Shown here: positions 6,586 through 38,990 of the stretch, piece after piece | Layout: each line of letters starts with the position of its first letter | Position numbering within the stretch: position 1 is the first letter of the stretch | Assembly (NCBI RefSeq): GCF_016888165.1 | Contig: NZ_JACSWC010000194.1 | Span: 1 to 46,847, forward strand | From: Halomicronema sp. CCY15110 | GTDB taxonomy: Bacteria > Cyanobacteriota > Cyanobacteriia > Phormidesmidales > Phormidesmidaceae | DNA length: 46,847 bases | Direction: 5' to 3' | Program-made: the position numbers and the translations under genes | The notes under the pieces: generated by a model | What the model was told of the DNA's origin: nothing | What the model saw: only the letters and a program-made list of their open reading frames with translations | Database searches by the model: none

Positions 6586-8487
6586 ATGACGAAATTTCCC
6601 ATTGACCTCAGCGCTTACAAGCGAATCACCCTCGATCCGGCGGTCACCACGTTAACCGACGAGCAACGCGCCGCCCTCAAGTTCAACATTGAGCTATGTC
6701 GCGATGCGATCGTCTTCTTTACCGCCACCGGTGCAGCGCGCGGCGTCGGTGGACACACGGGCGGTCCCTACGACACCGTTCCCGAGGTGATGATCTTGGA
6801 TGCGATTTTCCGAGGCAATGAGGATAAGTACGTTCCCACCTTCTTTGACGAAGCGGGGCACCGCGTAGCCACCCAGTATTTGATGGCGACCCTCAATGGT
6901 GACCTACCTGCCGAGCAACTGATGCAGTACCGCGCGGCGGGTTCCACCCTGCCCGGTCACCCCGAACTGGGTCTGACCCCCGGCGTCAAGTTCAGCTCCG
7001 GTCGTCTCGGTCACATGTGGCCCTATGTGAACGGGGTCGCCCTAGCCAACCCTGGCAAAGCCGTTTTCTGCCTCGGTTCTGACGGTTCCCAACAAGAAGG
7101 GAACGACGCGGAAGCCGCCCGTCTCTCAGTCGCCAACCACATCAATGTGAAACTGCTGATTGACGATAACGACGTCACCATTGCGGGCCATCCCTCCAGC
7201 TATATGGGTGGCTATAGCGTCAAACAGACTCTCGCGGGCCACGGCCTCACCGTGCTCGAAGGCGATGGCGAAGATCTCGATGCGCTCTACGCCAACATCT
7301 GCAAAGCGATCGCCACCCCCGGCCCTGTCGCCATCATCATCAAGCGACCCATGTCCGTCGGCATCGAAGGGATTGAAGGCAGCACCCACGGCCACGACGT
7401 GATTCCCGTTGACGCCGCCATCAAGTATTTGGAAGCCAAGGGCCACCCGGAAGCCGCCACCATTCTGAAAAACACCGAGAAGCCGAAGAATACCTATGAG
7501 TTCCTCGGTTCCTCTGACAAGGTTGGTGCTAACCGCAACGTCTTTGGCGATGCCGTCGTCGAAATTCTCGGTAGCATGGACGAAACTACCCGCAAAGATA
7601 GCGTCCTGGTGGTGGATAGCGACCTGGAAGGCTCCTGCGGTCTGGCGCAAATCCGCAAGGCGCACCCTGAAGTATTCATTAGCGGCGGCATCCAAGAGCG
7701 GGGCAACCTGTCGGCAGCGGCGGGGTTTGGCATGGAAAAAGGCAAACAAGGCATTTTCGCCACCTTTGCCGCCTTCTTAGAAATGTGTATTTCTGAGATC
7801 ACCATGGCCCGGTTGAACTACTCCAACCTGCTGTGTCACTTCTCCCACTCGGGAATTGACGACATGGCGGACAACACCTGCCACTTCGGCATCAACAACA
7901 TGTTTGCCGACAACGGGCTAGATGACGGCTACGATACCAAGCTCTACTTCCCCGCCGATGCGAACCAAATGAAGGCAGTGGTCAAAGCTGTCTTCAACGA
8001 TCCGGGGTTGCGGTTCATCTTTTCGACCCGCTCCAAAGTGCCCTATCTGCTGGATACCAACGGCAAGGAAATCTTTGGCGGCGACTACACCTTCACCCCT
8101 GGTAAAGATGAAGTAATTCGCGAAGGTTCGGCAGGCTACATCGTTACTTTTGGCGATTCCATTTATCGCGCTCTGGACGCTGTCGAGCGATTGAAGCAAG
8201 AAGGTATCGAAGTGGGTCTGATCAACAAAGCGACCTTGAACGTCGTCGATGAAGACATGATGGCGAAGATCGGCCAAGCGCCCTTTGTGTTGGTGACTGA
8301 GGCCTTCAACCGCCGGACTGGTTTGGGTAGCCGCTTTGGTTCCTGGCTGTTGGAGCGGGGCTACGCACCGAAGTTTGCTTACATCGGCACCCATGAAGAA
8401 GGTGGGGGTGGCCTGTGGGAGCAGTTCCCCCATCAGGGCATTGATCCAAGCGGCATCATGAAGAAGGTGAAAGAGCTGGTGGGCTAA
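6586..8487 (+). CDS. Transketolase-family thiamine diphosphate enzyme
   Basis: Protein of 633 residues from ATG 6586 (MTKFPIDLS); an upstream frame to 6475 adds 37 residues unlike the family. Thiamine diphosphate binding is shown by GSDGSQQEGNDAE followed about 25 residues later by DDNDVTIAG. The pyrimidine-binding and C-terminal domains follow (EMCISEITMARLNYSN; VTEAFNRRTGLGSRFG). The GGHTGGPYDTVPE segment differs from both classical TktA and DXS, so this is a divergent transketolase clade and the sugar substrate should not be assumed. A hairpin terminator follows at 8521-8551. Confidence 0.8.
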   Translation: MTKFPIDLSAYKRITLDPAVTTLTDEQRAALKFNIELCRDAIVFFTATGAARGVGGHTGGPYDTVPEVMILDAIFRGNEDKYVPTFFDEAGHRVATQYLMATLNGDLPAEQLMQYRAAGSTLPGHPELGLTPGVKFSSGRLGHMWPYVNGVALANPGKAVFCLGSDGSQQEGNDAEAARLSVANHINVKLLIDDNDVTIAGHPSSYMGGYSVKQTLAGHGLTVLEGDGEDLDALYANICKAIATPGPVAIIIKRPMSVGIEGIEGSTHGHDVIPVDAAIKYLEAKGHPEAATILKNTEKPKNTYEFLGSSDKVGANRNVFGDAVVEILGSMDETTRKDSVLVVDSDLEGSCGLAQIRKAHPEVFISGGIQERGNLSAAAGFGMEKGKQGIFATFAAFLEMCISEITMARLNYSNLLCHFSHSGIDDMADNTCHFGINNMFADNGLDDGYDTKLYFPADANQMKAVVKAVFNDPGLRFIFSTRSKVPYLLDTNGKEIFGGDYTFTPGKDEVIREGSAGYIVTFGDSIYRALDAVERLKQEGIEVGLINKATLNVVDEDMMAKIGQAPFVLVTEAFNRRTGLGSRFGSWLLERGYAPKFAYIGTHEEGGGGLWEQFPHQGIDPSGIMKKVKELVG

Positions 8488-9241: not shown

Positions 9242-12103
9242 CTATAGTCCCAAGAGGGGGGCGTCGAGGACACGGGCGATGCGATCGCGCACGTCCTCTA
9301 AATGAGCTTGGGTGGTAATGGGCATCCTGTCCCCGGTGCGGGAAAGCGCATCACTAATGTCATCCCGCATCTGGCGTAGCTGATAGCGGGCCAAGACGCG
9401 GGCATCCTCCGGTGCGCCGAGCGTCCCCAAGGTCGCCATGAACTCGTTAAAGCTCTGGGCGTTGAGGGCATCCCAAAAGGTGCGCCGCAGCACGAGGTTG
9501 GACAAAATATTGAGATGGTGGCGCTGCAACCCGCGCCGCAGACTTGATATCTCTGACGCAGCTGCATCGGGATTAGTAATCTCGGACCAAATGCTCTGGT
9601 ATAGGGAACCATACAGTTCCGACAGGGTGAGCACATCCTCGGCGTCGGTGCGAAATTCCAAATCGCGGACGCGAGCCAAGCGATCGGCGAGGAATAGCTG
9701 GCTGAGCGTTACGCTTTGCACTTCCAGCACCTGCTCATAAATCGGGTAATCCAGCGGAAAACTGGTGAGCCGCACGCCCCAGTGCCGCCAGCGATCGGGT
9801 GCCAGCTGGTTGATCAGTTGCGAGGAAAAGTCAAAGGCATCGGCGGCAAACACCTCTTCACTCAGGGCGGTCAGGGCGGCCCGCTGTTTGTCTGCCGCGA
9901 TCGGTTCAAAGGGCGTGTACTCGCGATTTTCCCAAGGGTTCAAACGCCGAAAGCGTTGGCCCCCAACATAATCCGTCAGGGTCAGCGCATTGCTGAAAAA
10001 GTAATTGAAGACGAGATCGACCCGGCGGCGGAGGCTACCGTAACCTTCGCCCGGATTTACTGACAGGCGGTTAAGGCGATCCCAGACGGCCTGAGCATTG
10101 TCGAGTTGCCACAGGGAATATTGCATGGGGTCGCTGCTGAGATCCCAGGCGCGGGATTCCGGGTCAATAAAGTCAAAAATGTCTTCATCAGTGGCGTAGG
10201 CCAAGGCGGGTTCAGTGCTGCGGCGCAGGATACCGCTCAACATCTGCTGCTCCGCCCGGGCCAGGGGAGAAGGCGGTGCTTCGCGGTAGCCGTATTCGAT
10301 CGCCCAACTATCGTATGGTCCTAAGCGACTGGGAAAGTACTCTCCCTGCTCGGTGCCAGGCGGGGCCACATTGGGGGGGAAATAATCCATCACGGAACTC
10401 ACCAGACCTTGAGTAGAGGTGAGTTCGGTATTGTTCAAGTCTTCCGGCGCGACGAGTAAGCTGCCCGCAAAGTTGTGGCGCAACCCCAAAGTATGGCCAA
10501 TTTCATGGGCGGTGAGCGACACTAAATACTGCTGAATAAACGCGTCGAGTTGAGCGCTAGTAAAGTCAGCGCCCGATAGCGTCGACAAGGCTAACGCCCC
10601 AAAGGCATTGTGTTGAGCGCTAAGATACCCGGCACAGTGATCATCCGTGAGTTGGTGATTACTGCCTTCGGTGGGCCAGCCTTCCAGATTTCGAGTCATT
10701 TCGAGTCCGGCTTCCCCTGCTTGCTGCATGGCGAGCCACTGCAAATACCAGGTTTGCGATCGCTGCCCACACAGCTGCAAATAAAACTCCGAACCATTCG
10801 GCGCATCCAGTCCTCGGGATTGGTACTGCTGCCGCAAATAGCGAATCACATTGGCATCGAGAATGATATCCGCATCGAGGATCTGGCCGGTGAGCGGATT
10901 CACCCGCGAGGGGCCAAAACCAATCGCCCAATTGCTCAACGAATCTGACCAGCGCACCACGTTGTAGCGCACATCAGAGGGATCCCAGGTCGCGTTATTC
11001 GGCATCTGCCGCGCTTCAATGGCGTTCTCAAAGCCGGCCGCTTCAAAGGCTTCATTCCAGGCCAAAATGCCCTGACGAATGGCCTCGCGATATTCTGGAG
11101 GCGTCGTATTCTCGATCCAAAAAACAATGGGCTCTTGGGGCGGTGACAGCTCAGCCTGGGGATTTTGTTTTTCGAGATGCCAGCGATTGATGTAGCGCAC
11201 AAACGGGTCGGTGCGCTGGGTCTGTAGGGGGGCTCGGAAGGCCGTCGTGAAATAGCCGACCCGTTCATCGGCTGGGCGCGGTTGATAGCTGTTATTCACC
11301 GGCAACTCCGACAAGCTATAGCGCACCTGCAAAGCAAACCCCCGGCTATCGGGAATGCTATCTAGGGAAAAGCTGAACAACGCCGCCAACGGATCCGTCG
11401 CGCCCCCACCAGAAAAGCCAACCACAGTGCCCACTTCCAGGTTTTCGGGAAACATCTGAAGTGACTCGAGCTGGGACAGCTCCGGATTGCGACTGTAATT
11501 ACTCAAGGCCCAGCCCAAGCCCTCAGTCAGGTTGGCTAAGTCCTGATCCATTAACAGCGTCGATAAATCGATCAGCTTGGCCTGGGTGCTGGGGTCAATG
11601 CTGACCACATCCACCACAAAGATGATGGAATCACTGAACGAGGTGTCTTGGAGCCGCTGTTGCCAACTTGCACCACCAGCATTGCGCAAATAAGTGTTGG
11701 GCACGGCGACCTGCACGCGATCGCCCGGCATTTCGCGAAACTGTATCACGAAATCGTTGATTGGCCAGCCGCGAAACAGCCCCGCTTCTCCCAGGCCGGA
11801 TTCCAGAGTCGCCGATAGTAAGAAATTACGGTTGAACTGTCGCGGCGTCAGGGCCAAGTAGGCTTCACCGCGATCGACATTTCCATAAATCGTCAGTAAG
11901 CCATCTTGTTTTTCCAGACTTTGGGTTAGCTCCCCAAAATCCAATAGTGGGCCGGTCGCTTCATCCGTTTCCGCCGCCCCGTCATCGGCCTGCGCATAAG
12001 CAGTCTGGGCGGCCCAAGTGCCCCCCAGCGCCAGCAACACCGCTAAACACACCCCAGCAATACCTAGGAGCAGGAACTTAATGGAACGGGTCAGACGATT
12101 CAT
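9242..12103 (-). CDS. Large exported zinc metalloprotease (DUF5117/DUF4953-like)
   Basis: Protein of 953 residues from ATG 12103; in-frame starts at 12133 and 12154 (GTG) are possible. The N-terminus is a clear signal peptide with a leucine-rich core ending near AQTAYAQA, so export is expected. The zinc site HEIGHTLGLRHN lies near residue 532, and SSVMDYFPP follows as the likely methionine-turn region. The layout (beta-rich N-terminal half, protease core, helical C-terminal third) and length fit the DUF5117/DUF4953 zinc-dependent protease group. Substrates are unknown. It reads toward the palindrome cluster at 8992-9172. A 460-base gap separates its start from the FHA gene upstream. Confidence 0.85.
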   Translation of the reverse strand: MNRLTRSIKFLLLGIAGVCLAVLLALGGTWAAQTAYAQADDGAAETDEATGPLLDFGELTQSLEKQDGLLTIYGNVDRGEAYLALTPRQFNRNFLLSATLESGLGEAGLFRGWPINDFVIQFREMPGDRVQVAVPNTYLRNAGGASWQQRLQDTSFSDSIIFVVDVVSIDPSTQAKLIDLSTLLMDQDLANLTEGLGWALSNYSRNPELSQLESLQMFPENLEVGTVVGFSGGGATDPLAALFSFSLDSIPDSRGFALQVRYSLSELPVNNSYQPRPADERVGYFTTAFRAPLQTQRTDPFVRYINRWHLEKQNPQAELSPPQEPIVFWIENTTPPEYREAIRQGILAWNEAFEAAGFENAIEARQMPNNATWDPSDVRYNVVRWSDSLSNWAIGFGPSRVNPLTGQILDADIILDANVIRYLRQQYQSRGLDAPNGSEFYLQLCGQRSQTWYLQWLAMQQAGEAGLEMTRNLEGWPTEGSNHQLTDDHCAGYLSAQHNAFGALALSTLSGADFTSAQLDAFIQQYLVSLTAHEIGHTLGLRHNFAGSLLVAPEDLNNTELTSTQGLVSSVMDYFPPNVAPPGTEQGEYFPSRLGPYDSWAIEYGYREAPPSPLARAEQQMLSGILRRSTEPALAYATDEDIFDFIDPESRAWDLSSDPMQYSLWQLDNAQAVWDRLNRLSVNPGEGYGSLRRRVDLVFNYFFSNALTLTDYVGGQRFRRLNPWENREYTPFEPIAADKQRAALTALSEEVFAADAFDFSSQLINQLAPDRWRHWGVRLTSFPLDYPIYEQVLEVQSVTLSQLFLADRLARVRDLEFRTDAEDVLTLSELYGSLYQSIWSEITNPDAAASEISSLRRGLQRHHLNILSNLVLRRTFWDALNAQSFNEFMATLGTLGAPEDARVLARYQLRQMRDDISDALSRTGDRMPITTQAHLEDVRDRIARVLDAPLLGL

Positions 12104-28598: not shown

Positions 28599-29462
28599 GT
28601 GAAACTCTCCGTCTATGGCAAAGGTGGTATTGGCAAATCCACCACCAGTTGCAACATTTCCGTCGCCCTCGCCAAACGGGGCAAAAAAGTCCTCCAAATT
28701 GGCTGCGACCCCAAACACGACAGCACCTTCACCCTGACTGGGTTCCTCATCCCCACCATCATCGACACGCTGAAGGACAAAGGCTTTCACTATGAAAATG
28801 TGTGGCCTGAAGATGTCATCTTCAAAGGCTACGGTGGGGTGGACTGTGTCGAAGCGGGCGGCCCCCCGGCGGGCGCTGGCTGTGGCGGCTACGTCGTGGG
28901 CGAAACCGTCAAACTCCTCAAAGAACTCAACGCCTTCGATGAATACGACGTGATTCTCTTTGATGTGTTGGGCGACGTGGTTTGCGGCGGCTTTGCGGCC
29001 CCGCTCAACTATTCTGACTACTGCATGATCGTCACCGACAACGGTTTCGATGCCTTGTTCGCAGCTAATCGGATCGCGGCCTCGGTACGCGAAAAAGCTC
29101 GCACCCATCCCCTGCGCCTAGCCGGACTCATCGGCAATCGCACCTCTAAGCGTGACCTGATCGATAAATACATCGAGTCAGTAAATATGCCAGTGCTCGA
29201 AATTCTGCCACTGATCGAAGACATCCGCATCTCGCGGGTCAAGGGCAAGACCCTCTTCGAAATGGCCGAAACCGATCCTTCGCTGACGCCAGTAACGCAG
29301 TATTACCTCAACATTGCCGACCAAATTCTCGCGCAGCCTGAGGGCGTCATCCCCAGTGAAACGAAAGATCGCGAACTGTTTGCGTTGCTGTCTGACTTTT
29401 ATCTCAATCCCCCCGCAGACGCGCCGAAGCAAGAATCTGAACTAGATCTGATGATGGTTTAA
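28599..29462 (+). CDS. chlL: Light-independent protochlorophyllide reductase, iron protein ChlL
   Basis: Protein of 287 residues from GTG 28599; the frame to 28524 is longer than the family. The P-loop is [10 protein letters not shown], and the bridging Fe4S4 cysteines lie in GCGGYVVG and GDVVCGGFA. It is a nitrogenase iron-protein homologue that passes electrons, with ATP hydrolysis, to ChlN-ChlB, reducing protochlorophyllide to chlorophyllide in the dark. A DUF5331 gene and chlN follow in the same direction, the usual cyanobacterial order. chlB is elsewhere. Confidence 0.96.
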
Positions 29463-29654
29463 CTCGATTTTGTGCCGAATTTTCGAGGCGGCACTGAGCT
29501 TCACGCGGACACTCACCGTCTAAGTTCAGTCGCCTCCACCGATTTTTTACCCCGAATCCCCGAGTCCCTGTAACGTTGCTGCTCAATTGACTCTCTGCTT
29601 TGATGAATTTCATCTATCATGAGGCGTCTAAACGCAACGGATTGAGGCAAAGTG

Positions 29655-30014
29655 ATGGCCTTCTTCGAAAATTTCGTATCAGTAATTCGCCAAAAGTGGC
29701 TAGATTACGTGGAATCTAACCGGGAGTGGTTGCACTTGCAAATGCGAATGACCTCGGTCAGAACTCCCGACGGGGGACGACGCCCATCGTCATTCCTCAT
29801 CTTGGGTGTGGTGAACGCCTTAGAACCCAAGTTAGGCAATCTGATGGTGCCGTTTTACCAGCTCAATTCTGATGAAGATGCGCTGGTCGAAGTGCTCGGC
29901 CTCAACTTTGACCCAGAAATGGCGTTAGCTGGCGGTAGTCTACCCACCACCGTCGATGCGGAAAACGAAGAGGCGACAATGCTACTCGATTCAGCTGAAG
30001 CTGATGAGAGCTAA
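29655..30014 (+). CDS. DUF5331-like protein between chlL and chlN
   Basis: Protein of 119 residues from ATG 29655 (a GTG lies just before it). It opens with a hydrophobic-aromatic helix (FFENFVSVIRQKWLDYVESN), then RTPDGGRRPSSFLILG, and ends acidic. It resembles the cyanobacterial DUF5331 family, which is often found between chlL and chlN. The position suggests a role in assembly or control of the reductase, but that is inference. There are no cysteines for an Fe-S cluster. Confidence 0.7.
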   Translation: MAFFENFVSVIRQKWLDYVESNREWLHLQMRMTSVRTPDGGRRPSSFLILGVVNALEPKLGNLMVPFYQLNSDEDALVEVLGLNFDPEMALAGGSLPTTVDAENEEATMLLDSAEADES

Positions 30015-30093
30015 AGCGTTGTGAATCACTTGCGCGATCGCCGTTACAGTTTGGCCTTGAGGGGACTTTCCATTGACTGCACTTAAGGAGTAA

Positions 30094-31509
<1,416 letters not shown>

Positions 31510-32731: not shown

Positions 32732-33010
32732 TTAAAGCGCTTCAGGGAATATACGCGACTCCCGAAAACATTTCACTTTGCAGTAGAAAGCGTCGCTAGA
32801 TTTATTGATTTTGGGCAGAAAATATTTTGGCATTAAAAAAGAGAGGTCGATGACCTCTCTTTCTGGATGAGATTGGGTGTCGGATGATTTCAGCCGTTGC
32901 CGCAGTTGTTGGTGACGTTTACGGAGCTGGCGTTGTCGAGCAGTACCCGCCCGCCCTTTATCGTTGCGCCCCCGGCGACGGGGAGATTCCCACCGTTTGA
33001 GCGTCGTCAT
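32732..33010 (-). CDS. Small basic open frame after tRNA-Leu (doubtful)
   Basis: Open frame of 92 codons from ATG 33010, 26 bases after the tRNA on the same strand. The first 50 residues are strikingly basic and Gln-rich (KRWESPRRRGRNDKGRAG, then RQRQLRKRHQQLRQRL). The frame continues through a strong terminator (32838-32862), so transcription should end before its stop codon. A real gene would have to be shorter or read through. I do not recognise it. Confidence 0.3.
   Translation of the reverse strand: MTTLKRWESPRRRGRNDKGRAGTARQRQLRKRHQQLRQRLKSSDTQSHPEREVIDLSFLMPKYFLPKINKSSDAFYCKVKCFRESRIFPEAL
32838..32862 (-). terminator. Rho-independent terminator of the tRNA-Leu transcript
   Basis: A perfect 11-bp stem (AAAGAGAGGTC with GACCTCTCTTT) has a 3-base loop. 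On the minus strand it is followed directly by a run of six Ts. This is the strongest terminator in the window and should end the transcript that carries the M48 gene and tRNA-Leu, or the tRNA alone. Confidence 0.9.
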
Positions 33011-33035: not shown

Positions 33036-33117
33036 TGGGCGGAGAGAGACTCGAACTCTCACAACCGAAGTCGCCACATTTTGAGTGTGGTGCGTCTACC
33101 AATTCCGCCATCCGCCC
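33036..33117 (-). tRNA. tRNA-Leu (anticodon CAA)
   Basis: 82 bases including the discriminator A. The acceptor stem GGGCGGA pairs with TCCGCCC. The D-arm has GGTAG, the anticodon stem CCACA/TGTGG encloses the loop CTCAAAA (anticodon CAA, reads UUG), a long variable arm follows as in class II tRNAs, and the T-arm has GTTCGAGTC. CCA is not encoded. Its first 22 bases are also the last codons of the M48 protease gene. Confidence 0.96.
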
Positions 33118-33974
33118 TTGGATGACACTCGAGGATTATACTGCGAAACGTCACGGTTTAGCAAAGTTTGGTATTCCGGGCTGTTGAACCAGCGGTCAAT
33201 TTCGCGAGCCCGCAAGACCGGCAACGGATGGGTCAAATCTTGGGTGCGAATCTGCTTGATAATCTCGCCTGTTTCCGAGGCCACTGCAGCATCATAGGCC
33301 CGAGCCTGATCGAGAAAAGCGTCAACATTGAGTTGTGCGGAGAGACTGGGCGAGCCTCCGGACAGTTTCATCAACAAAGAGGCGATGGTCTGGGCATCTT
33401 GAACCACGAGTAAGGCGGCGCGATCGCAGGTAAACTCGGCGCAGCGCACCCATTCCATAATTTGCGTTTGAAACGTGGGCACCAGCAACTCGGCAAAGGG
33501 CAACTGGCTCGCCGCCAAAGTCAATAGATTAGCCAGGGTGAGATACACGCTGTGGTCACATTTGAGATGTCCCAGTTCATGACCAATGACCGCCTGAATT
33601 TCAGCGGGATTGAGTAGCTCAATCAAAGCGGTGTGAATCACAATAAATGGCTGCTTCCCCCGCATGGCAAAGGTGTAGGCATTCGGGACGGGGTGCTGGC
33701 GAATGTAGAGTTGGGGGGCGTCCAGATCGAGGATTTTGCAGGCCTCTAACAATAGCTCATGTAAGTGGGGCAGCTGGCGATCGCTCACTAACACGCTGGA
33801 AGAAATGTTGTCGAGGTAAAACACCTGCTCGGCGACTGGTCCTAGCGCCGTCCGCACCGCCATATCGAGCCCGGGCAACTGGCGCAGGGTCGTCGTCGCA
33901 TTTAGATCCAACGGGTGGCGAAAGTGATCAGCTTTCAAGCCAGTTAAGACGGTCTTTTGAGCGGTGGTGTCCAT
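33096..33974 (-). CDS. M48-family metalloprotease, 3' end inside tRNA-Leu
   Basis: Protein of 292 residues. The zinc motif HELGH lies at residues 132-136 (AVIGHELGHLKCDH), with a third-ligand glutamate near 180 (RCAEFTCDRAAL) and the substrate-cleft segment VPNAYTFAMRG near 96. The family cleaves membrane or misfolded proteins, but this copy has only weak hydrophobic segments (residues 140-170). The last seven codons (GGWRNW and the TAG) are the 5' end of the tRNA-Leu on the same strand. The usual family C-terminus probably ended earlier. wecB starts upstream at 35168 in the same direction. Confidence 0.88.
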   Translation of the reverse strand: MDTTAQKTVLTGLKADHFRHPLDLNATTTLRQLPGLDMAVRTALGPVAEQVFYLDNISSSVLVSDRQLPHLHELLLEACKILDLDAPQLYIRQHPVPNAYTFAMRGKQPFIVIHTALIELLNPAEIQAVIGHELGHLKCDHSVYLTLANLLTLAASQLPFAELLVPTFQTQIMEWVRCAEFTCDRAALLVVQDAQTIASLLMKLSGGSPSLSAQLNVDAFLDQARAYDAAVASETGEIIKQIRTQDLTHPLPVLRAREIDRWFNSPEYQTLLNRDVSQYNPRVSSKGGWRNW

Positions 33975-36022: not shown

Positions 36023-36865
36023 TTGAAATCTCAATCTCTCGGGTGGCAGCCCATCGCCCTAGGATTTGTCGCGTTGGTGTTGTTCACCATCGCGTCTAGC
36101 AGCTTTGTCATCATCAATCCGGGCCAAGCGGGCGTCCTCAGTATCTTAGGCAAAGCCCAAGACGGCGCATTGTTAGAAGGTGTCCACTTTAAGCCGCCGG
36201 TGATTTCGGCGGTGGACGTGTATGACGTGACCGTCCAGAAATTTGAAGTACCCGCGCAAAGTTCCACCAAAGACTTACAGGATTTGTCGGCCCGGTTTGC
36301 CATCAACTTTCGGCTTGATCCGAGTGAAGTGGTGACTATCCGGCGGACGCAAGGCACCCTGGCTAACATCGTGGCGAAAATTATTGCCCCCCAAACCCAG
36401 GAGTCCTTCAAAATTGCGGCAGCGCTGCGCACGGTCGAAGAGGCCATTACCAAGCGGCAAGAATTAAAAAATGACTTCGACGAAGCCCTGGATACGCGGT
36501 TAGATAAGTACGGCATCATCGTCCTGGATACCAGCGTGGTGGATTTGGAATTCTCGCCGGAGTTTGCCAAGGCGGTCGAAGAAAAGCAAATTGCTGAGCA
36601 GCGGGCTCGCCGAGCCGTGTATGTCGCGCAAGAAGCTGAGCAAACCGCTCAGGCCGAAGTTAACCGGGCGAAAGGTCGGGCCGAGGCGCAGCGACTGCTA
36701 GCAGAAACGCTCAAGGCCCAAGGGGGCGAGCTTGTGCTACAGAAAGAGGCGATCGAAGCTTGGCGAGAAGGCGGGGCGCAAATGCCTCGGGTCTTGGTGA
36801 CTGGCGGTGGCAATAGTGCCAGTGTGCCCTTCATCTTTAATACCGCTGACCTTACGGCTGATTAG
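36023..36865 (+). CDS. Prohibitin/SPFH-family membrane protein
   Basis: Protein of 280 residues from a TTG start at 36023, fixed by AAGGAG at 36011-36016. One membrane segment (about 10-30) is followed by an SPFH domain (NPGQAGVLSILGKAQDG, then EGVHFKPPV) and a long helical region rich in Ala/Glu (KQIAEQRARRAVYVAQEAEQ). Family members form large rings around membrane proteases and lipid patches. The 3' end overlaps that of the converging gene by 14 bases, so the two ends cannot be separated without affecting both. Confidence 0.9.
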   Translation: MKSQSLGWQPIALGFVALVLFTIASSSFVIINPGQAGVLSILGKAQDGALLEGVHFKPPVISAVDVYDVTVQKFEVPAQSSTKDLQDLSARFAINFRLDPSEVVTIRRTQGTLANIVAKIIAPQTQESFKIAAALRTVEEAITKRQELKNDFDEALDTRLDKYGIIVLDTSVVDLEFSPEFAKAVEEKQIAEQRARRAVYVAQEAEQTAQAEVNRAKGRAEAQRLLAETLKAQGGELVLQKEAIEAWREGGAQMPRVLVTGGGNSASVPFIFNTADLTAD

Positions 36866-38990
36866 CCGCCGCCTCGGCCTCAGCCTCGGCCCGCAAAATT
36901 GACTGCAACTGGTCGAGCGATGCCAAGGTGCGTTGTTTAATCGTTTCAGCGTCTGTCTCATCGGCAGGCGCTGTTGCTGTTTTGGGGGCTGCCAGCGGGG
37001 TGACGCGGGTGGCGGAGGGTGGCTCTGATGTGTTGAAGGTGGCCTCTGAGACTGGCATGGGCAGGGATGTCGGTGGGTCAAACCGAATGGGGGCGGGTTC
37101 CGGGACTGCCGTTGCAGAGTCTGGAGTTGGGTCGGCGGGGGCCGGCGCGGCTGAGGCGGGGATGCGGTCGGCGGCAGGGGGCAGAGCGATCGCCGCTGGC
37201 GTTGGCGAGTCAGTCACTGCGGTGCGCCCACCCGCTGAGGCTGGAGCAGACGACTCGGCCACAGGGGCCGGATTCTCCTCAGTCGGGGGAGCCGCGATCG
37301 CGCCTGTAATCTTTGCCGCCTCAGGCTCCGGTATCGGTTCGCTCACTGGAGCAGCGGACGGTTCGGTCATCTCTGAAAGGGATACTGATTCAGTTGCTGG
37401 GGGTGGGGTAACAGTCGTCTCCACTCCCTCAGTCGCTGCTGGTGGATTCTCGGGAGCAGGGGCTGGCTCGGGAGCATTGCCCGTCAGGAAATTCGTCACC
37501 GCTTGGCCTAAGCGTCCGAGACGGCGCGACTGAGGCTGCGGCTCGATGCCTTGATCAGCTCGGGTCGGACTCTTGCTAGGCGTCACACTCACTTTGTCGC
37601 CGTTGGGGGCCGCCATCGCGATCACTGCTGACTCGGCGTCATCAGAGAGAGCTGAGACAGGGGGCGAGACATCATCCTCTGGTGCAGGAGTCTGAGCCAC
37701 GGTGTCAGACGCTGAGTCGCGACCAGGGAAAGCGTCGAATGCGAACGGTACCGGATCAATGAGTCGTTCAGGTGGGGCGACTTCTGGCTCTAAATTGAGC
37801 GTGATGTCATCGTTGTTGGGTACGGGGGCAGGGGCGATCGCGACCTGGGTTTGAGCGTTGAAGGCTGAGATTGCCCGCGCGATCGCAGTGGCTCGTCGTT
37901 CTTGGTCATGACTGATGGAATAGATATTGTTTCCCAACCCCGGGGCATTCCACCGCTGGGTGTCGGGGTCAATGAACGACCGGGTGCGCGCCCAGATAAT
38001 CGCCTCTGAGCCCTGCATGCCGAGGCTATGGGCTTCCTTCAGCCAGTCAATATAGCCGCCTCGATCTAACGCTGCAAGGGGTGCCTGGTTCGCCAAATCA
38101 ATCCCGTTCAACAGCTCTTCCTTAGTGAGCTGTAGCCCTTGGGCGAGGGCTTTTTCGCGCAGGGTTTCCGTCTGCGTTTGCAGTCGCCGCAACTGCTTAT
38201 CATCGGCTTCTTCTGGAGATGCAGCCCCATGCTGGTAAGAGAACGTGCCCAAATTCCAGACGCCATTGCCCGGGTCAACATGTCCGTAGTAGGCGGGATT
38301 TTTGTGACCCTCGGGAGTGCGGGTGCCCTCGGCGCTGCCCACCGCCCGAGCCACCAGAGATTCCGTGCCGCCAGTAAATAAGGTGTGGAAGTTGTCAAAG
38401 GAATATTGAAAGACGGTGGGCTGTGCCGCCGGGGGCTGATCTGGCTCTGGGGCCACGGCCACGGTCTCTTGCGGGGCCTCAAAGGTCTTTTCTTGAATGC
38501 CGATGAACAGCGCAATTTGCGCTTGAATCTCAGTTTCGGTGAGCTGTTGAGCTTTTGCCTCCGGTTCAGGCACGGGCTCGGGCGGTGGAGCGATCGCCGT
38601 CTGTAGGGCCTGGACGTAAGCGGGAATGGGCGGCGGCGCAGGCAACAAGGCCTGGACTGACGCCGTCGAGCCCAGTGCCACAGCTTCTAAGCCCCCGTAA
38701 ACGCCTGAGGGACGGCTATTGTCGCTCGCCATCGGGGGATTTTCGGCCCCAGCGGGAATCGGCAAGGGTGCTTCGGCATTCACGAGGGTTTTCGCTGCCG
38801 TCGCGGCGGCAGCGGCCTCGGCGGCCTCGGCTTCGACAGCAGCGGCTTCGGCTTTGGCCGCAGCGACGGCCTGAGGTGAAGGCGACAACTCAAAAGACAA
38901 GGCCACGTCGTTGCTGGCTTTGGCCGCACTGCCAACCCCAAAGGACATGGCCAAAGTACCTAGCGTTAATAAGGCTCGATAATGCGGCAT
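36852..38990 (-). CDS. Large Ala/Pro-rich exported protein
   Basis: Protein of 712 residues with a signal peptide in the first 25. Residues 30-190 are Ala/Pro-rich. A conserved-looking domain spans about 195-370 (VGSAEGTRTPEG, AYYGHVDPGNGVWNLG, FSYQHGA, then GLGNNIYSISHDQERR). A second long low-complexity tail follows. The central GSAEGTR and GHVDPGNGVWNLG motifs recall cyanobacterial proteins of unknown function with a possible lysozyme-like fold; this is unproven. Low-complexity flanks suggest a cell-wall linker or extracellular location. It converges with the SPFH gene and overlaps it by 14 bases. Confidence 0.7.
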   Translation of the reverse strand: MPHYRALLTLGTLAMSFGVGSAAKASNDVALSFELSPSPQAVAAAKAEAAAVEAEAAEAAAAATAAKTLVNAEAPLPIPAGAENPPMASDNSRPSGVYGGLEAVALGSTASVQALLPAPPPIPAYVQALQTAIAPPPEPVPEPEAKAQQLTETEIQAQIALFIGIQEKTFEAPQETVAVAPEPDQPPAAQPTVFQYSFDNFHTLFTGGTESLVARAVGSAEGTRTPEGHKNPAYYGHVDPGNGVWNLGTFSYQHGAASPEEADDKQLRRLQTQTETLREKALAQGLQLTKEELLNGIDLANQAPLAALDRGGYIDWLKEAHSLGMQGSEAIIWARTRSFIDPDTQRWNAPGLGNNIYSISHDQERRATAIARAISAFNAQTQVAIAPAPVPNNDDITLNLEPEVAPPERLIDPVPFAFDAFPGRDSASDTVAQTPAPEDDVSPPVSALSDDAESAVIAMAAPNGDKVSVTPSKSPTRADQGIEPQPQSRRLGRLGQAVTNFLTGNAPEPAPAPENPPAATEGVETTVTPPPATESVSLSEMTEPSAAPVSEPIPEPEAAKITGAIAAPPTEENPAPVAESSAPASAGGRTAVTDSPTPAAIALPPAADRIPASAAPAPADPTPDSATAVPEPAPIRFDPPTSLPMPVSEATFNTSEPPSATRVTPLAAPKTATAPADETDAETIKQRTLASLDQLQSILRAEAEAEAAANQP

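Follow-up and report, generated by a model that had tools for sequence, protein, structure and literature searches.

In the 46,847-nucleotide stretch of Halomicronema sp. CCY15110 DNA analysed here (the window), the last 22 bases of an M48-type protease gene, stop codon included, are also bases 1-22 of a tRNA-Leu(CAA) gene on the same strand (Table 1). This had been the original prediction and was confirmed by ARAGORN, by Rfam and by the ORF coordinates; the overlap is real and not due to chance, and it recurs across the cyanobacterial class rather than being an accident of one genome. Taken as a whole, the locus very probably represents an old same-strand overlap in dual use, with the tRNA-encoded tail of the protease kept as protein. 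The overlap, its conservation, the position of a promoter-like box, and the persistence of both tail and box once the genes had parted are apparent in the sequences compared.

Table 1. Features of the protease/tRNA-Leu(CAA) locus, in window coordinates
Feature	Position	Strand	Basis and details
M48-type (HtpX/Ste24-like) metalloprotease gene, 292 aa	33096..33974	(-)	ORF; Pfam PF01435 Peptidase_M48; C-terminus QYNPRVSSKGGWRNW, then stop
TTGCTA, -35-like hexamer	33159..33164	(-)	18-nt spacer to TATAAT; consensus match
TATAAT, likely -10 box of tRNA promoter	33135..33140	(-)	Within protease frame (codons Tyr-Asn), 17 nt before tRNA; sequence only
Shared 22 bases	33096..33117	(-)	tRNA positions 1-22: third base of K286 + GGC GGA TGG CGG AAT TGG TAG (GGWRNW stop)
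tRNA-Leu(CAA)	33036..33117	(-)	ARAGORN + Rfam RF00005, 58.8 bits vs cut-off 29
Hairpin, 3' arm ending in U run, possible terminator	32836..32864	(-)	-17.4 kcal/mol, z -5.8

Protease and tRNA genes of the window

The protease matched the Pfam model of peptidase family M48 at 72.9 bits (cut-off 20.3, E 3.9e-20) and carries HELGH (HExxH motif) at residues 132-136, invariant in 58 aligned rows (window plus 57 of 80 named relatives). HtpX and Ste24 have the Peptidase_M48 domain in common with it and are its nearest solved folds and sequences, but HtpX family models scored far below their cut-offs (best 67.6 bits against 341 for the NCBIfam HtpX equivalog), and no tRNA-encoded tail was seen here outside the cyanobacterial group. 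A PDB fold search returned nothing at E 0.001 or below, with ZMPSTE24 and Ste24p at the top and HtpX fifth. An AlphaFold2 model (window plus 57 relatives) had a mean pLDDT of 80.9, good for the body, and fell below 50 at residues 276-292; with the tail at about 31-40, it gave no structural clue to the role of the tail. The tail may be a short motif for docking or membrane contact, to judge from its flexible linker and the two tryptophans at its end.

The tRNA folds as a cloverleaf with a CAA anticodon and scores above the Rfam cut-off, from which its function is predicted. CCA is not encoded by the gene, and an exact pattern detected one tRNA-Leu(CAA) in this genome. The hairpin in Table 1 lies about 170 nt past the tRNA and was not flagged by a separate scan of the region. 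Read as protein, the D-arm gives W-R-N-W-stop, the protease TAG (33098-33096) being part of the D-loop GGTAG.

The genome was also searched for the same C-terminal motif on other proteins, using a pattern that allowed CGN or AGN for Arg. Six sites were returned; apart from the protease site of the window, the longest ORF ending at any of them had 8 codons including the stop, and a shared motif was rejected. Elsewhere in the window, a NifH/frxC-family gene, a DUF5331 gene and a nitrogenase-component-1-type gene stand in a row at 28605-31509 (+), the first and last of which we take to be of chlL and chlN type; a 712-aa Ala/Pro-rich ORF at 36852-38990 (-), searched without its first codon, had no Pfam match at E 0.001.

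Distribution among cyanobacteria

Tracts of open frame leading into tRNA genes were compared across the 42 distinct tRNA genes placed by ARAGORN in the tRNA loci of this genome and in the window (Rfam, 43 places). The 285 codons before tRNA-Leu(CAA) form the longest same-strand ORF entering any of them; the runner-up, 104 codons beside tRNA-Phe, overlaps in part with a longer ORF read in a different frame. Such short ORFs are what a chance or ORF-calling artefact in one genome would draw on, but the artefact is refuted, and is left with practically no probability, by the presence of the overlap in 25 of the best 30 loci from 59 near relatives and in 71 of the 119 class genomes that could be paired by coordinates among the matches listed. 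These pairs were made by hand and comprise 40/73 from one search and 31/46 from a second, in which genomes were chosen from the tRNA list; G148 was counted as separated, its second tRNA site lying beyond the matches listed. The class sample is less biased than the sets of loci classified below, and in the evenly drawn class genomes a protease ortholog (E 1e-50 or better) was found in 261/388 and the tRNA pattern in 349/388.

Gene ends were then classified in 140 loci, comprising the 30 loci of relatives, 80 named genome loci and 30 hand-picked deep-family loci, sets that share some genomes and reduce to 134 once identical gene ends are removed. The genes overlap in 79 loci, the tail is present without overlap in 38, the genes are adjacent without a tail in 7, and neither applies in 16; in the same order, the sets gave 25/5/0/0 (relatives), 49/31/0/0 (named) and 5/2/7/16 (deep families). 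One overlapping locus (L012) was assigned by hand, as its contig ends inside the tRNA. Named carriers include Microcystis aeruginosa, Planktothrix rubescens PCC7821, Leptolyngbya sp. PCC 6406 and Nodosilinea nodulosa PCC 7104. The overlap is also present on a contig with the title Chloroflexaceae MAG (L106), which is probably a wrongly binned cyanobacterial contig.

The comparison of gene ends in relatives, which the original prediction had proposed as a check, returned the same geometry repeatedly: the D-loop TAG is in frame with the protease in 75/75 distinct overlapping loci, and the RNA role is kept, a tRNA being found by ARAGORN in the overlapping loci with the exception of L012. The 9-nt form of the D-loop, which yields the in-frame TAG, was present in 21/34 genomes chosen from non-overlap lineages; D-loop length as an adaptation to the overlap was therefore rejected, and the stop itself required no adaptation.

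A promoter-like box within the protease frame

The window combination TTGCTA-18-TATAAT matches 10/12 promoter bases. A promoter scan of the region returned 3 such sites against 1.3 in shuffles, so the window site by itself proves little. Among relatives, a perfect TATAAT occurs in the 45 nt preceding the tRNA in 59/74 distinct overlapping loci, and five of the six bases are present in 14 more, whereas control 45-nt windows of the same genes gave 1/1202 perfect boxes and 92 with five of six. The remaining locus (L016) has no box within 45 nt, and its TATAAT lies further upstream, behind an insertion.

The box-to-stop distance is divisible by 3 in 72/73 overlapping loci (39, 36, 33, 48, 54; exception L114), as expected if the stretch is translated, against 11/22 before separated tRNAs (Fisher 1e-7). 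When perfect boxes only were counted, the proportions were 59/59 and 6/10. From these sequence comparisons, the tRNA appears to have its own conserved promoter within the protease gene. In two further loci the protease itself stops at the TAA inside a TATAAT, 13 nt before the tRNA in L124 (family f19) and about 70 nt before it in L121.

Tail and box after separation

The fetched stretch includes a tRNA in 22 of the 36 distinct tail-only loci, and each of these tRNAs is preceded by a perfect TATAAT (10) or by five of its six bases (12). At the former place of the box in the tail-only proteases, a perfect TATAAT was found in 0/36 and five of six bases in 5. The promoter-encoded residues YN are present in 62/75 overlapping copies versus 1/36 tail-only copies (74 versus 7 for the looser Y[NDTS]). 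The tail residues of the same 36 genes were retained (W 36, R 35, N 35, W 36); every one of the four CGN codons is in use, and the stops are distributed as TAG 19, TAA 13 and TGA 4.

Codon changes in WRNW were inferred by parsimony over 107 tail-bearing rows. After loss of the overlap, 22 synonymous and 2 nonsynonymous changes were counted, set against a chance expectation of 5/36 synonymous among single-base changes (p 3e-17; p-values overstate independence because the loci are related). On overlapping branches the count was 24 to 0, which constraint from the tRNA alone could cause. Because GWRNW was kept through synonymous changes while the promoter-encoded residues were lost, the tail is selected as protein, and the post-separation count in WRNW amounts to a demonstration, by codon comparison, of a protein role independent of RNA constraint.

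These counts bear directly on a passive origin, by which the protease lost its stop, took the TAG of the tRNA as the next one and acquired a tail without function. The D-loop GGTAG would supply the in-frame stop for free, tRNA constraint would hold the bases while the genes overlap, and the tail is indeed gone in some lineages. It is absent from L132, presumably Thermosynechococcus, and is thus not indispensable; L116 and L118 end KGWW and AWW, and these two family f11 proteases, in whose loci no tRNA was found, likely carry decaying tails. Against a passive tail, the amino acids stay while the codons drift once the genes are apart, and the CGC/CGT codons and TAA/TGA stops of tail-only genes occur in 0 of 75 distinct overlapping copies. 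A tail without function is already contradicted on these grounds and is very improbable. Nor can conversion by the tRNA account for the retained tail, given that the tail-only codons are not those of the tRNA.

Separation of the genes

A gene tree was built from 128 of the 140 loci (left out: L012, L013, L014, L018, L020-L025, L124 and L138). The tree was a quick one with many weak branches and the parsimony is rough; on it the overlap was lost 12 times, with at least 6 losses forced by well-supported branches. Presence of the tail required 4 changes, for which one gain plus losses is the simplest reading and, with many inner branches weak, no proof. It had also been proposed that the overlap marks a past rearrangement; the tree and the distribution across the class do not support this as the cause, the overlap being a state of long shared ancestry from which lineages departed again and again.

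Among 19 loci with a downstream tRNA, 11 have 20-30 in-frame protease-like C-terminal residues before the tRNA, as in L062 (YKYLLQNQKIAYNRKVAPKGGWRNW, the best match of 80 queries), where E-values come from a tiny database and the last residues of each relic are tRNA-encoded. Stop codons occur in 5 of the 11 relics. In the other 8 the in-frame match spans 7-14 residues that are mostly tRNA-encoded, and is hence uninformative. Protease-like relics before separated tRNAs point to the probable duplication of a segment that carried the 3' end of the protease gene together with the promoter and the tRNA. A second full-length protease near the separated tRNAs was sought by tblastn (E 1e-3) in 31 separated named loci of up to 5.9 kb each, and only C-terminal relics were recovered.

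In Cylindrospermum (L062), an FMN-dependent dehydrogenase gene (PF01070, E 2e-139) lies between protease and tRNA, and ORFs similar to it by eye are present in L070 and L080. One contig (G340:C213) has a tRNA-Leu(CAA) site at 6922 that overlaps the protease and another 2.8 kb away at 9749, and may be an intermediate of separation.

Possible coupling to tRNA processing

The original prediction held that RNase P, by cutting at the tRNA 5' end, would remove the stop codon from the protease mRNA. The geometry agrees, in that a read-through mRNA so cut would lose its last six codons and the stop, and such coupling is possible for read-through transcripts. Two observations had been named as refuting it, a separate tRNA promoter inside the protease gene and a protease mRNA ending before the tRNA. 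A promoter-like box of the first kind was found; a complete mRNA of the second kind is impossible with the stop inside the tRNA. With an internal promoter, tRNA processing need not consume protease mRNA.

Coupling could be elaborated into a switch, in which each read-through transcript becomes either tRNA or complete protease mRNA, tRNA processing sets protease output, and tmRNA-type rescue clears the cut mRNA. The two fates are mutually exclusive on one molecule by geometry, and the overlap has lasted in many lineages. The conserved separate promoter-like box of the tRNA counts against the switch, as do the 12 losses of overlap with the tail staying in place, which argue that coupling is not what selection visibly keeps; we regard the switch as decidedly unlikely. 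A related proposal is that the D-arm was taken up early as a functional motif W-R-N-W-COOH and that, where the genes overlap, the shared RNA imposes an exclusive choice between full translation and tRNA, by which tRNA processing would affect the dose or the tailing of the protease. This combination is speculative and rather unlikely.

Proposed history of the locus

In L134, L136, L137 and L140 a tail-less protease lies immediately upstream of tRNA-Leu(CAA). We take these to be Gloeobacter-like genomes, and L136 to be G. violaceus PCC 7421. TATAAT lies between gene and tRNA in 3 of the 4, and L140 has a TAAAAT that shares bases with the final codons of the gene. This arrangement, adjacent without overlap or tail, is probably the earlier state, and the best reading of the locus as an old dual-use overlap is that the two genes began as neighbours, that the protease then lost its stop and was extended into the tRNA, and that losses followed.

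The ancestral protease gene would thus have stood just upstream of tRNA-Leu(CAA), with the tRNA promoter at or just after its end. Presumably an early lineage of cyanobacteria lost the protease stop, and the frame would have run through the promoter into the tRNA and ended at the D-loop TAG, so that the D-arm came to encode the last residues GGWRNW. This tail may then have become useful to the protein and been kept by selection. Transcription of the tRNA would start mainly at its own promoter within the protease gene, RNase P trimming off a short leader, while the protease would be translated from longer transcripts running through the tRNA, on which ribosomes read the D-arm in place of its folding. 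Later the genes would have separated in many lineages, in many cases when the tRNA was duplicated together with the 3' end of the protease gene, after which the tail was usually kept by the protease and the promoter by the tRNA.

Related systems and significance

In the literature searched, from which most subscription papers fell outside coverage, no report of the overlap and no study of a GWRNW C-terminal motif was found. In the compact genomes of animal mitochondria, tRNA and protein genes share bases, and long transcripts are cleaved at the tRNAs, stops often being completed afterwards; the bacterial tRNA differs in having its own promoter-like box and in supplying both stop and tail. In phage Fionnbharth, according to the text available, tRNA-Lys(TTT) overlaps the 3' end of gene 37 from the opposite strand and has its own promoter, and the gene 37 protein has a C-terminus 18 aa longer than that of a homologue without the tRNA (PMC10865867). 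The likeness lies in these three features; the phage overlap, however, is on opposite strands and confined to one phage subcluster, with selection on the tail not described in that text, whereas the cyanobacterial overlap is same-strand and class-wide, with the tail kept after separation. An ORF over a tRNA gene in a gut bacterium, with peptide support and missed by an annotation program, is alike in placing a protein frame over a tRNA gene, as a single case with no evolutionary analysis described in the available portion of the source (PMC8967034).

The overlap is a warning for annotation pipelines that trim genes at tRNAs. Its repeated separations are natural experiments in which RNA-, promoter- and protein-imposed constraints can be separated on the same bases. 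In what appears to be an ancient bacterial case, tRNA sequence turned into protein sequence and was afterwards maintained for the sake of the protein; the overlap also marks out a C-terminal motif on a widespread cyanobacterial protease.
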